Origin: a virus
Length of the DNA stretch: 22,040 nt
Strand: one strand, 5' to 3'
IMG/VR virus record: IMGVR_UViG_3300032132_000047
Location: 1-22,040 of that record
Shown: one piece after another, positions 505-7,669 of the stretch
Layout of the letters: each line of letters begins with the position of its first letter
Numbering within the stretch: position 1 is the first letter of the stretch
Made by a program: the position numbers and the translations under genes
Notes under the pieces: model-generated
Databases searched by the model: none
Seen by the model: only the letters and a program-made list of their open reading frames with translations
Told to the model about the DNA's origin: nothing

Positions 505-1263
505 ATGATTGAAAAGACTCTTAACAATCCTGAAAGTGATAATTTAAAACAAGACGTTGTTGACAGCATCTTAGAAAATCTCCCAGTCGAGGTTGAAACT
601 GAGGTATCTTTGCCGTCTAAAGGTAGGTTTTATTCTTTACCTAATCCCGCAGCAGGCGTATCTGTTAGACCAATGACTTTCGAAGACGAGAAGTCCCTTG
701 CTACAATTAAAAAATCTGATAAGGTCGAGCCCGTTAATTATTTACTAAGTAAGTGTGTTAATAATTTAAATATTAATGAACTTTTGCTTATGGATAAGTT
801 ATTTCTTCTCTACAAGATACGAGAAATATCTTATGGCACAGACTACAAGGCTGTGATATCTTGTCCTAAATGTTTTCAAGATTCAGAAGTTACGATTGAT
901 ATTTCTAAACTTCTATTGAATGAAGTTCCTGATGATTTATCAGATCCCAGGAAGATTGAGTTGCCTGCACTTAAAAAGTCTGTAACATTAAGATTCCCGC
1001 GTCTTAGAGATGAAAAATATTTGAATTTCATAGAGAATAAAAACATCCAATTGTGGAGATTTATAGAAGATATTGAAGGGCATACAGATAAGCAAGTAAT
1101 TGCTAAAGTTCTTGAAAAATTGCCATTAAAAGATATGCATGTATTAGTGTCTGAGCTAATGAAGCCAGAATATGGGCTGGATTCTAAAATTAATTTCATT
1201 TGTGGGGACTGCGAAGCAGAAACTGTAGTAAATATCCCTATAGGTGAGAATTTTTTTTCTTAG
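505..1263 (+). CDS. 26: T4 gp26-like baseplate/tail-assembly protein (zero-frame product)
   Basis: A 252-residue protein. The motif LPSKGRFY at 36-43 followed by VSVRPMTFEDE at 52-62 is the hallmark of the T4_baseplate (gp26) family. Two CxxC pairs, C120/C123 (CPKC) and C233/C236 (CGDC), probably bind one zinc ion. T4 gp26 is 208 residues long and is required for hub assembly. The start follows AGAAGGAA with normal spacing. The 3' end is unusual: the last sense codons are AAT TTT TTT TCT before TAG, forming a T TTT TTT slippery heptamer, and the -1 frame continues into a gp51-like segment. The gene heads the left structural block and, in the Mu/P2-like order seen here, occupies the place of the tail-assembly chaperone upstream of the tape measure. 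The family call is firm; the chaperone role is inferred. Confidence 0.82.
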   Translation: MIEKTLNNPESDNLKQDVVDSILENLPVEVETEVSLPSKGRFYSLPNPAAGVSVRPMTFEDEKSLATIKKSDKVEPVNYLLSKCVNNLNINELLLMDKLFLLYKIREISYGTDYKAVISCPKCFQDSEVTIDISKLLLNEVPDDLSDPRKIELPALKKSVTLRFPRLRDEKYLNFIENKNIQLWRFIEDIEGHTDKQVIAKVLEKLPLKDMHVLVSELMKPEYGLDSKINFICGDCEAETVVNIPIGENFFS

Positions 1264-1451
1264 AGATTGAAGAAGAATTACAGTTAGATAATCTATTTCA
1301 GGAAGCCTACATATTAGTAAAGGAAATTGGGGTCTCATACAGGGATGTAAAAGCCATGACCCGGATGGAGAGAAAACATTTCCTGAATTTATACGTAGAA
1401 GATATGGAGAGGCAAAAAGATGCAGTTGAACGGCAATCTAATCATAGATAG
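1248..1451 (+). CDS. 51: gp51-like segment expressed as a -1 frameshift extension of the gp26-like protein
   Basis: This -1 frame is open from just after a TGA at 1245 to TAG at 1449-1451. It has no ATG, GTG or TTG until an ATG at 1356, in the middle of what looks like a conserved helix, so independent initiation is unlikely. Joined at 1257 it adds 64 residues, making a fusion of about 315 residues (505-1257 joined to 1257-1451). The added part is acidic and helical, starting FLEIEEELQLDNLFQEAY, with SYRDVKAMTRMERKHFLNLY further on. A short helical segment ending in an xxERxxFLxLY pattern is typical of the T-domain of tail chaperones. In T4, gene 51 (hub assembly factor) directly follows gene 26, which supports the gp51 assignment. 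It overlaps the next gene by 32 bases. The assignment rests on position and pattern, not on an alignment. Confidence 0.65.
   Translation, partial: EFFFLEIEEELQLDNLFQEAYILVKEIGVSYRDVKAMTRMERKHFLNLYVEDMERQKDAVERQSNHR
1251..1257 (+). promoter_or_regulatory. Predicted -1 programmed ribosomal frameshift site (T TTT TTT)
   Basis: The zero-frame codons are AAT TTT TTT TCT TAG. Both tRNAs can re-pair perfectly after slipping back one base, giving the classic X XXY YYZ arrangement with X, Y and Z all T. The zero-frame stop is the second codon after the heptamer. An SD-like AGGTGA (1242-1247) lies 3 bases upstream, a position that can stimulate -1 slippage in bacteria. I see no strong stem-loop downstream; the best is a 5-bp AGATT/AATCT pairing (1264-1268 with 1290-1294). 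The eight-T run is also a homopolymer at which a sequencing error could occur. Confidence 0.68.
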
Positions 1452-4891: not shown

Positions 4892-6367
4892 ATGGTAGAG
4901 AGAGACCAGGGAACCCGAGCCGCAGCAGAAGGACTTAAGGCAGCACTTAGAGAACAGCACGCCGCAACGATAGCTTTAACCAGGGTTTACAATAAAGCTA
5001 TTGACCTGATGGTGGAGATGGATGCGTTACAACAAGCATCTTTATCTGTAGGCACTACTGCGAATAGACTAAGTGAGAAGTTAGGTACCAATCTTGAAGA
5101 CTTACCAGGAGGGATAAAAATTGGTATGGATCATGCTGTTCAGTTTCTGCAAGCAGGATTCAAAGACGTTAATGGCGGGATGCTAAAACTTGCTGGTGCC
5201 GCAAAAGCGACTGGGCAAAATGCGAACCTAATGATTCAAGGATTAGCTTCCATGGCGTCTATTCTACCCATGACTACTGAAGAGACTGGCAAGTTGGGTA
5301 TGACTATATTAGATTTTTCTGTAAAATATGGTACTACAGCCACTGCCATGATAGAAGCGTTGAAAGCAAACGCTAAGGCTATAGCCCTTGTGGGGGCTGG
5401 TAATACAGAGAGAGGAAAGCAATTAACCAAGGCTGTCGCTGGCTTAACGGCTCAAGCTCCATTATTTAAGGATACTATCACTCAACTAGCTAATAAGTTG
5501 TCCTTTGAAGAAGGAGCGGCGGATGTTCAAAATATGTTGGTACGTCTTGGAAGGGAAGATCTAGCGTTCCAAGCCATGGAAGGAAAGATTACGGCTGGAT
5601 TATTGCGTGAAATGGCGGCGGCTGAAGTAAAACAGTTTAATATGTTAACTGACGGTCTTAAACATAGTCAGTTTTTAAAGCAGCAGTTTTCTAAGGGTCT
5701 TTCCTTACAAGCAGATCAAATAGGGGCTTTAGAGGCTATGGAACTTTCCATTCAAGAAGGTTTTGATTTAGCGACTGCAAGCAGCGAAGAGGTCGCGGCA
5801 CACTTTGATAATAGTTTAACAACACAGATAAATGCACTTATAGGTGAGATTCAAGTTTCTTTACTTCCACATTTAGAGAAGATTGCTAATTTTGTCCAAA
5901 CAATCGTAAAATTTCTTGTAGATAACAAATTTGTGCAATTCCTAGTTAGTGTTGGCGGTAAATTTTTAATGATTGCTGGTTTATTTAAAGTTTTCATTGG
6001 AGCGTTTCAGGTTTTTAAAAACATGATCGCCGTCGCCTTAAAATCCATCTCCATGCCCCTCACACTCTTATTAACGGCAGCATGGCTAATATATGAAGCG
6101 ATTTCCTTTTTCGGAGCCAGTACTAAAAAAAGAGAAGACGAAGAGGCTATGTTGGCTCGTAGTAAAAAGGAAGATAAAGTTGAGAGGGACGCTGGTAGGC
6201 TTTCCAACACTGTAACCGCAGCCATTATGGCAGCACAGATGTCAACAGAGAGTGCGTTCTTTGGAGAAGATGTTACATTTGACCAACGAGAAAGAATTGC
6301 TGCTGCTGTTGAATTACTTGCAGCACGGACCAGCGGCGGTTCTCGATCAATTAGTGAACCAAACTAA
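4892..6367 (+). CDS. 29: Tail tape measure protein (T4 gp29 counterpart)
   Basis: A 491-residue protein with a start behind a strong AAGGAGGG ribosome binding site. Residues 1-320 are almost entirely helical and alanine-rich with no cysteine. Residues 322-408 contain several hydrophobic segments (VQFLVSVGGKFLMIAGLFKV, then TLLLTAAWLIYEAI), and the C-terminus is charged (KKREDEEAMLARSKKED) followed by a short helical end. This helical rod with a hydrophobic, membrane-competent stretch is typical of tape measure proteins, which fill the tail tube, set its length and are ejected ahead of the DNA. T4 gp29 has 590 residues, so the tail may be somewhat shorter than that of T4. The place between a chaperone-type gene and the tube-initiator gene supports the call. 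Primary-sequence identity to gp29 is not evident by eye. Confidence 0.78.
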   Translation: MVERDQGTRAAAEGLKAALREQHAATIALTRVYNKAIDLMVEMDALQQASLSVGTTANRLSEKLGTNLEDLPGGIKIGMDHAVQFLQAGFKDVNGGMLKLAGAAKATGQNANLMIQGLASMASILPMTTEETGKLGMTILDFSVKYGTTATAMIEALKANAKAIALVGAGNTERGKQLTKAVAGLTAQAPLFKDTITQLANKLSFEEGAADVQNMLVRLGREDLAFQAMEGKITAGLLREMAAAEVKQFNMLTDGLKHSQFLKQQFSKGLSLQADQIGALEAMELSIQEGFDLATASSEEVAAHFDNSLTTQINALIGEIQVSLLPHLEKIANFVQTIVKFLVDNKFVQFLVSVGGKFLMIAGLFKVFIGAFQVFKNMIAVALKSISMPLTLLLTAAWLIYEAISFFGASTKKREDEEAMLARSKKEDKVERDAGRLSNTVTAAIMAAQMSTESAFFGEDVTFDQRERIAAAVELLAARTSGGSRSISEPN

Positions 6368-7384: not shown

Positions 7385-7669
7385 ATGGCACAATCTAGTC
7401 AATATTATTTAGGAAGTATAGACACTTATCATAAAAAGAAACGTCTTCTTATAGGTGCAGGTTCAGTAGGGTTTGATGCTATTGGAGAATCTATCCTTGA
7501 TTATGATATAGCTTATGTTATTAATGGTTATGAGCATAGACCAGACTTAATCTCTGATGTTTTTTACAATACCCCTGAGTATTGGTGGTTAATATTATTG
7601 TATAATAATATAGATGATCCCTTCGAAGGATTAAATGTTGGGGATCAGATTAAAATCCCTAAATTGTAA
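7385..7669 (+). CDS. 53: gp53-like baseplate wedge protein with LysM-like fold
   Basis: A 94-residue protein. The pattern YEHRPDLISDVFYNTPEYWW at 49-68, then LILLYNNIDDPFEGLNVGDQIKIP, is characteristic of the LysM-like core of gp53-type baseplate proteins: a paired Trp, an Asn-Asn-Ile, a Pro and a final GDxIxIP strand. T4 gp53 is 196 residues and clamps neighbouring wedges together; this version is about half that size and close to the bare LysM core, similar in scale to the P2 tail protein X. It sits between the tube initiator and the hub, and its TAA overlaps the next ATG (TAATG). Confidence 0.78.
   Translation: MAQSSQYYLGSIDTYHKKKRLLIGAGSVGFDAIGESILDYDIAYVINGYEHRPDLISDVFYNTPEYWWLILLYNNIDDPFEGLNVGDQIKIPKL

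Follow-up and report, generated by a model that had tools for sequence, protein, structure and literature searches.

The window, meaning the whole 22,040-base stretch of a virus record that was analysed, carries a T4-type baseplate module that includes gp53-like, gp25-like and gp6-like wedge proteins; the gp53-like protein (94 aa, positions 7385-7669) shows a weak match to LysM at its C-terminus. Positions 505-1263 of the plus strand are occupied by a gp26-like ORF of 252 aa, referred to here as TAC-N. It matches the Pfam family PF12322 (T4_baseplate) with an E value of 4e-17 and 63 bits (cut-off 24.5), residues 36-251 being aligned to positions 9-218 of the 219 in the profile, and it matches phrog_150, 'baseplate hub', with an E value of 3e-24. 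Two CxxC motifs (C120/C123 and C233/C236) are invariant in the alignment columns over 42 relatives. The AlphaFold model of TAC-N is confident (pLDDT 88.5), and its Foldseek comparison with viral models recovered gp26 relatives, headed by that of phage SP-15 (E 5e-19), which confirms the gp26 family but not a TAC function. Among the weak matches of the model to PDB structures are the HK97 chaperone 2ob9_B (rank 10, E 2.5, probability 0.30, TM to the target 0.41, rmsd 4.5) and the phage-like YqbN, 3klu; the HK97 match is suggestive, although insufficient as evidence alone, and a profile search of PDB sequences returned chance-level matches only.

The 3' end of TAC-N reads AAT TTT TTT TCT TAG in the zero frame from position 1249. 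It contains the slippery heptamer T TTT TTT (plus strand, 1251-1257) as part of a run of eight Ts (1251-1258), the sole run of at least seven Ts on the plus strand of the window, and it ends in the stop codon TAG at 1261-1263. The heptamer is separated from this stop by 3 nt, the single codon TCT, whereas in relatives the spacing is usually 9 nt. After a slip, the -1 frame continues for 64 codons (1257-1448) and then reaches a stop at 1449-1451. Its first ATG, GTG or TTG is the ATG at 1356, the 34th codon, and the conserved domain that it encodes begins upstream of that position. The next ORF (321 aa, plus strand, 1420-2385, no family match), whose product begins MQLNG, starts at an ATG within this frame and overlaps it by 32 nt. 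An earlier note on this DNA had described both an in-phase T TTT TTT just before the stop of the gp26-like gene and a 64-codon -1 frame that lacks a start codon before its middle and overlaps the next gene, and both descriptions hold.

The -1-frame extension, TAC-C (64 aa, plus strand, 1257-1451 with its stop), would yield a fusion of 315 aa, TAC-NC. Family profiles were needed, since no significant hit emerged when the window proteins were compared directly with T4 gp51 by BLASTP. In a single hhalign comparison, the family tail profile aligned to the C-terminal ~44 residues of T4 gp51 with an E value of 3e-6, and the fused family profile matched gp51 with an E value of 1.4e-6. In 24 of 34 relatives the tail is assigned to phrog_634 ('baseplate hub assembly catalyst'; best E 7e-5); the window TAC-C sequence alone had no significant match. 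Its AlphaFold model (pLDDT 88.2) comprises four helices, the last one long, and gave no Foldseek match.

TAC genes usually sit between the tail-tube and tape-measure genes, a placement that is usual rather than defining and that is seen in SP-15 and LIS04. The window pair is flanked instead by uvsW on the minus strand and by the 321-aa gene. In the window group at large, the downstream gene encodes a conserved protein of 309-332 aa, its start usually falls within the TAC-C frame, and the gene and its arrangement are kept in most relatives. A protein of 491 aa encoded at 4892-6367, helical, with hydrophobic segments and without a family match, is by its composition the likely tape-measure protein. 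This candidate lies 3.4 kb from the chaperone gene and is not adjacent to it; T4 gene 26 is likewise not adjacent to gene 29.

Conservation among uncultured relatives and isolates

When IMG/VR was first scanned with TAC-N (252 aa) as query, 63 relatives with 37-94% identity were obtained, which together with the window make up 64 loci (52 TAC-N ORFs after duplicate ends are collapsed). All 64 carry an in-phase heptamer 3-18 nt before the stop, in the form T TTT TTC in 50 and T TTT TTT in 14, followed by a -1 frame of 57-66 codons that encodes the same domain in each. A second scan, in which the alignment served as query, added 38 further contigs, every one with an in-phase T TTT TT[C/T] and a -1 extension of 54-64 codons. 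The in-phase heptamer and a homologous open -1 frame are thus found at 102 of 102 gp26-like loci on separate contigs. By comparison, of the 268 other ORFs with a length of 100 aa or more at the first-scan loci, not one has an in-phase run of six Ts within its final eight codons. At the first slip codon, all 53 non-redundant sequences use TTT, whereas the other phenylalanine codons of these genes comprise 250 TTT and 77 TTC, TTC making up about a quarter. The in-phase slip site is not a product of chance and is strongly conserved. Common descent links the 102 loci, so that the counts do not represent independent events; nevertheless, as judged from the sequences, there was ample room for loss of the motif at 37-94% identity.

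Substitution patterns indicate that the TAC-C frame is under purifying selection, with a median dN/dS of 0.23 over 527 pairs. For the window and L002, its closest relative (94% identical, on a different contig), pS is 0.146 and pN 0.035 in this frame. A run of eight Ts recurs in a few divergent relatives (L058, L064 and L053), most of the others having six Ts followed by C, a pattern that suggests drift between T TTT TTC and T TTT TTT.

A T TTT TT[C/T] junction followed by a -1 extension is also found in isolates, namely in the cyanophages S-RIM8, S-CAM1, S-ShM2, S-H34 and ACG-2014f and in Aeromonas phage 65.2, Nitratidesulfovibrio phage SRB7757, Stenotrophomonas phage RAS14, Pseudomonas phage Astolliot and Vibrio phage D482. 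In the public records examined, the two halves are annotated as separate genes or the extension is omitted: in several isolates the extension is a separate 'gp51', in S-RIM8 it is annotated from a late start, and in S-CAM1 it is unannotated. The small genes annotated as 'gp51, baseplate hub assembly catalyst' are likely to be frameshift extensions rather than separate genes.

Other arrangements occur within the same family. In SP-15, LIS04 and SagM-GXN1 (L066:3661-3922, L067:3676-3925 and L068:3709-4006, respectively), TAC-C lies in the +1 frame relative to the gp26-like ORF, and these phages share an NCC CGA motif, GCC CGA in SP-15, before the stop; TAC-C is likewise in +1 in LR756508 (L074). 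From their sequences, SP-15, LIS04 and GXN1 apparently employ a +1 frameshift within this chaperone family, which, if true, would represent a T4-type chaperone that uses the opposite shift. In the Ackermannviridae phage SenALZ1 (L164:1576-1786), the gp26-like gene is followed by an open -1 extension that does not begin with a start codon, and no canonical slippery heptamer is present at the junction (GAG ATT TTC ATT TAA).

Sequences flanking the slip site

A downstream structure or an upstream SD stimulator is common at sites of -1 programmed ribosomal frameshifting, but is not obligatory. SD elements that aid -1 shifts lie about 10-14 nt upstream of the slip site. The SD-like AGGTGA to which the earlier note had drawn attention is indeed present on the plus strand of the window, at 1242-1247, just upstream of the heptamer. 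It ends only 3 nt before the heptamer, a spacing that is wrong for a -1 shift, and it is shared with L002 and with no other relative, so that it was rejected as a frameshift stimulator; on sequence grounds, AGGTGA is probably non-functional.

In many relatives, a hairpin starts about 8-10 nt 3' of the heptamer, as exemplified by CUAGAAGAAG...CUUCUUCUAG in L009 and CUAAUAGAG...CUCUAUUAG in L054; the hairpins of L005 and L054 are strong. Compared with codon-preserving resampling, the hairpins of the relatives have a mean z of -1.5, with p <= 0.05 in 47% of the sequences; compared with dinucleotide shuffles the mean z is -1.45, against -0.14 for folding windows inside TAC-N. The corresponding site in the window (plus strand, 1267-1301) forms a weak, non-significant stem of -3.4 to -4.6 kcal/mol, and no significant downstream structure was found there (fold z +0.5 and +1.85). 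The window thus has neither a significant downstream structure nor a well-placed SD element. A single conserved downstream helix was rejected for the group as a whole, with pair counts for fixed helices not above those of shuffles and RNAalifold yielding no consensus; since no single fixed helix is supported, the lineages seem to form their own hairpins.

Proposed mechanism and rival explanations

The locus very probably encodes, by -1 programmed ribosomal frameshifting, the two chaperones TAC-N (252 aa) and TAC-NC (315 aa) of a T4-type contractile-tailed phage, a reading based on comparative sequence evidence and on analogy. Most ribosomes would translate TAC-N. In a minority, both tRNA-Phe on TTT TTT would move back by one base and pair anew on T TTT TTT, and these ribosomes would miss the TAG and continue in the -1 frame to produce TAC-NC, in which TAC-N gains the helical TAC-C domain of 64 residues. 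If the pair behaves like lambda gpG/gpGT and P2 E/E+E', both forms, present in a fixed ratio, would coat the tape-measure protein and deliver it while hub and tail are assembled, and would then depart. We infer slippage, its frequency and the chaperone function from the sequence, its reading frames, their conservation and selection, and the homology to T4 gp26 and gp51. The proposal of the earlier note that the gp26-like protein and a gp51-like C-terminus form one shifted product gains support from the slip sites at all 102 loci, the selection on the -1 frame and the homology of the extension to the gp51 C-terminus.

Transcriptional slippage could also generate the fusion, as the eight Ts present in the window, L002, L053, L058 and L064 make up a run long enough for RNA polymerase to slip on. 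On the other hand, 50 of the 64 loci of the first set possess only six Ts followed by C, which is too short for efficient transcript slippage and constitutes a proper tandem ribosomal site, and the phase of the heptamer is fixed, so that slippage by the polymerase rather than the ribosome appears very unlikely. A sequencing indel, or a decaying gene in which TAC-NC is really one continuous ORF, would likewise account for the two frames in the window, given that homopolymers are error-prone and that T4 gp51 is a continuous fusion of this kind. The occurrence of the same eight Ts and the same frames in L002, on a separate contig, makes an assembly indel very unlikely; the same frames recur on the 102 separate contigs, many of them with six Ts and a C instead of eight Ts, and the -1 frame is under purifying selection, which leaves this explanation with a practically negligible probability. 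TAC-C could instead be an independently initiated small gene that is coupled to TAC-N. Such an arrangement is conceivable for distant relatives (Cygsa01, Vibrio phage D482, K445, LR756511 and S-ShM2) in which an ATG overlaps the TAC-N stop, as in Cygsa01, K445 and LR756511, or lies just past it. It is hardly credible for the window, which has no ATG, GTG or TTG before codon 34 although the conserved TAC-C domain starts upstream of that codon, and most relatives, as well as S-RIM8, S-CAM1, Astolliot and 65.2, have no ATG at the beginning of the extension.

The remaining explanation accepts the frameshift and concerns the products, which may be structural hub components or factors of hub assembly only, rather than tape-measure chaperones. 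The window-group locus is not next to the tape-measure gene, and T4 gp26 is a hub component in some genetic work (PMC3004832); the same review, however, counts both gp26 and gp51 among the hub-assembly chaperones and records that gp51 is missing from the T4 particle (PMC3004832). Moreover, the pair lies directly upstream of a large tape-measure-like gene in SP-15, LIS04, 65.2 and cyanophages such as S-RIM8, and the production of two forms by one frameshift is the signature of TACs. A purely structural or hub-specific role is thus considered unlikely, and a pair of tape-measure chaperones is the preferred reading. With 102 contigs carrying the site, the T4-type chaperone frameshift would be widespread in uncultured phages.

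Comparison with known chaperone systems

In lambda (gpG/gpGT), P2 (E/E+E') and HK97 (gp13/14), one gene provides a short chaperone and a longer -1 frameshift product. The window is predicted from its sequence to follow the same scheme of a short form and a longer -1 form, although no sequence homology to these systems was found in a shallow comparison, and the structural echo of the HK97 chaperone is weak.

TAC genes of T4-like phages were reportedly identified by Vladimirov, Gautam and Davidson in 2022 (Virology 566:9-15), who are said to have found frameshifting conserved in several T4-like groups, T4 itself having the separate genes 26 and 51. The window group resembles these TACs, as reported, in belonging to the same family and in its predicted -1 slippage on a T run at the 3' end of TAC-N. 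It differs from the reported TACs in being located beside uvsW and a gene of roughly 320 aa rather than a tape-measure gene, and it represents an uncultured group with T TTT TT[C/T] and, in many members, a hairpin. The idea of a T4-type chaperone frameshift was already published in 2022, as is evident from the passages of PMC10885494 and PMC12846349 that cite it; what appears to be new relative to that work is the uncultured group and its apparently +1-shifting cousins SP-15, LIS04 and GXN1. In place of a frameshift, some T4-like phages have one gene for the short form and another for the fusion (PMC10885494), and T4-like TAC-N genes are known to contain poly-T signals (PMC12846349). The TAC locus of the Vandenendeviridae (phage Adele) is similar to that of the window in its conserved poly-T -1 frameshift site and in the kind of comparative evidence adduced for it, but belongs to another phage family, uses a GTTTTT motif and adjoins the tape-measure gene (PMC12846349). 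The cyanophage gp26/gp51 pairs (S-RIM8, S-ShM2, ACG-2014f and others) share the T TTT TTC junction and the -1 TAC-C with the window group, while differing from it in their annotation as two genes, in the ATG that some have near the start of the second, and in the large tape-measure-like gene directly downstream.

The earlier note had placed T4 gene 51 directly after gene 26, which is wrong: gene 26 (115802-116428, minus strand) and gene 51 (116479-117228, plus strand) are divergent. T4 gp51 matches the Pfam T4_baseplate family with an E value of 4e-52, and gp26 and gp51 align to each other in hhalign (E 2e-17); by these profile comparisons, gp51 is a full gp26-like domain with an extra C-terminus. 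As gp51 already holds the complete gp26-like domain, T4 has two genes that stand in for the frameshift, the window ORF corresponds to the short form, and the predicted frameshift product is the counterpart of gp51. It may be that the short and extended forms are conserved throughout the gp26/gp51 family while the route to the second form has changed repeatedly, a view to which we assign about even chances. Four routes would then be represented: the -1 shift on T TTT TT[C/T] in the window group, cyanophages and 65.2; the +1 shift at NCC CGA in SP-15, LIS04 and GXN1; a restart at an ATG over the stop in Cygsa01 and K445; and duplication with in-frame fusion in T4. The window resembles T4 in that TAC-N shares homology with both gp26 and the N-terminal domain of gp51, and its -1 tail with the gp51 C-terminus, whereas T4 has the divergent genes 26, the short form, and 51, the in-frame fusion, without a frameshift, and its gp51 thus becomes readable as the fused long form.
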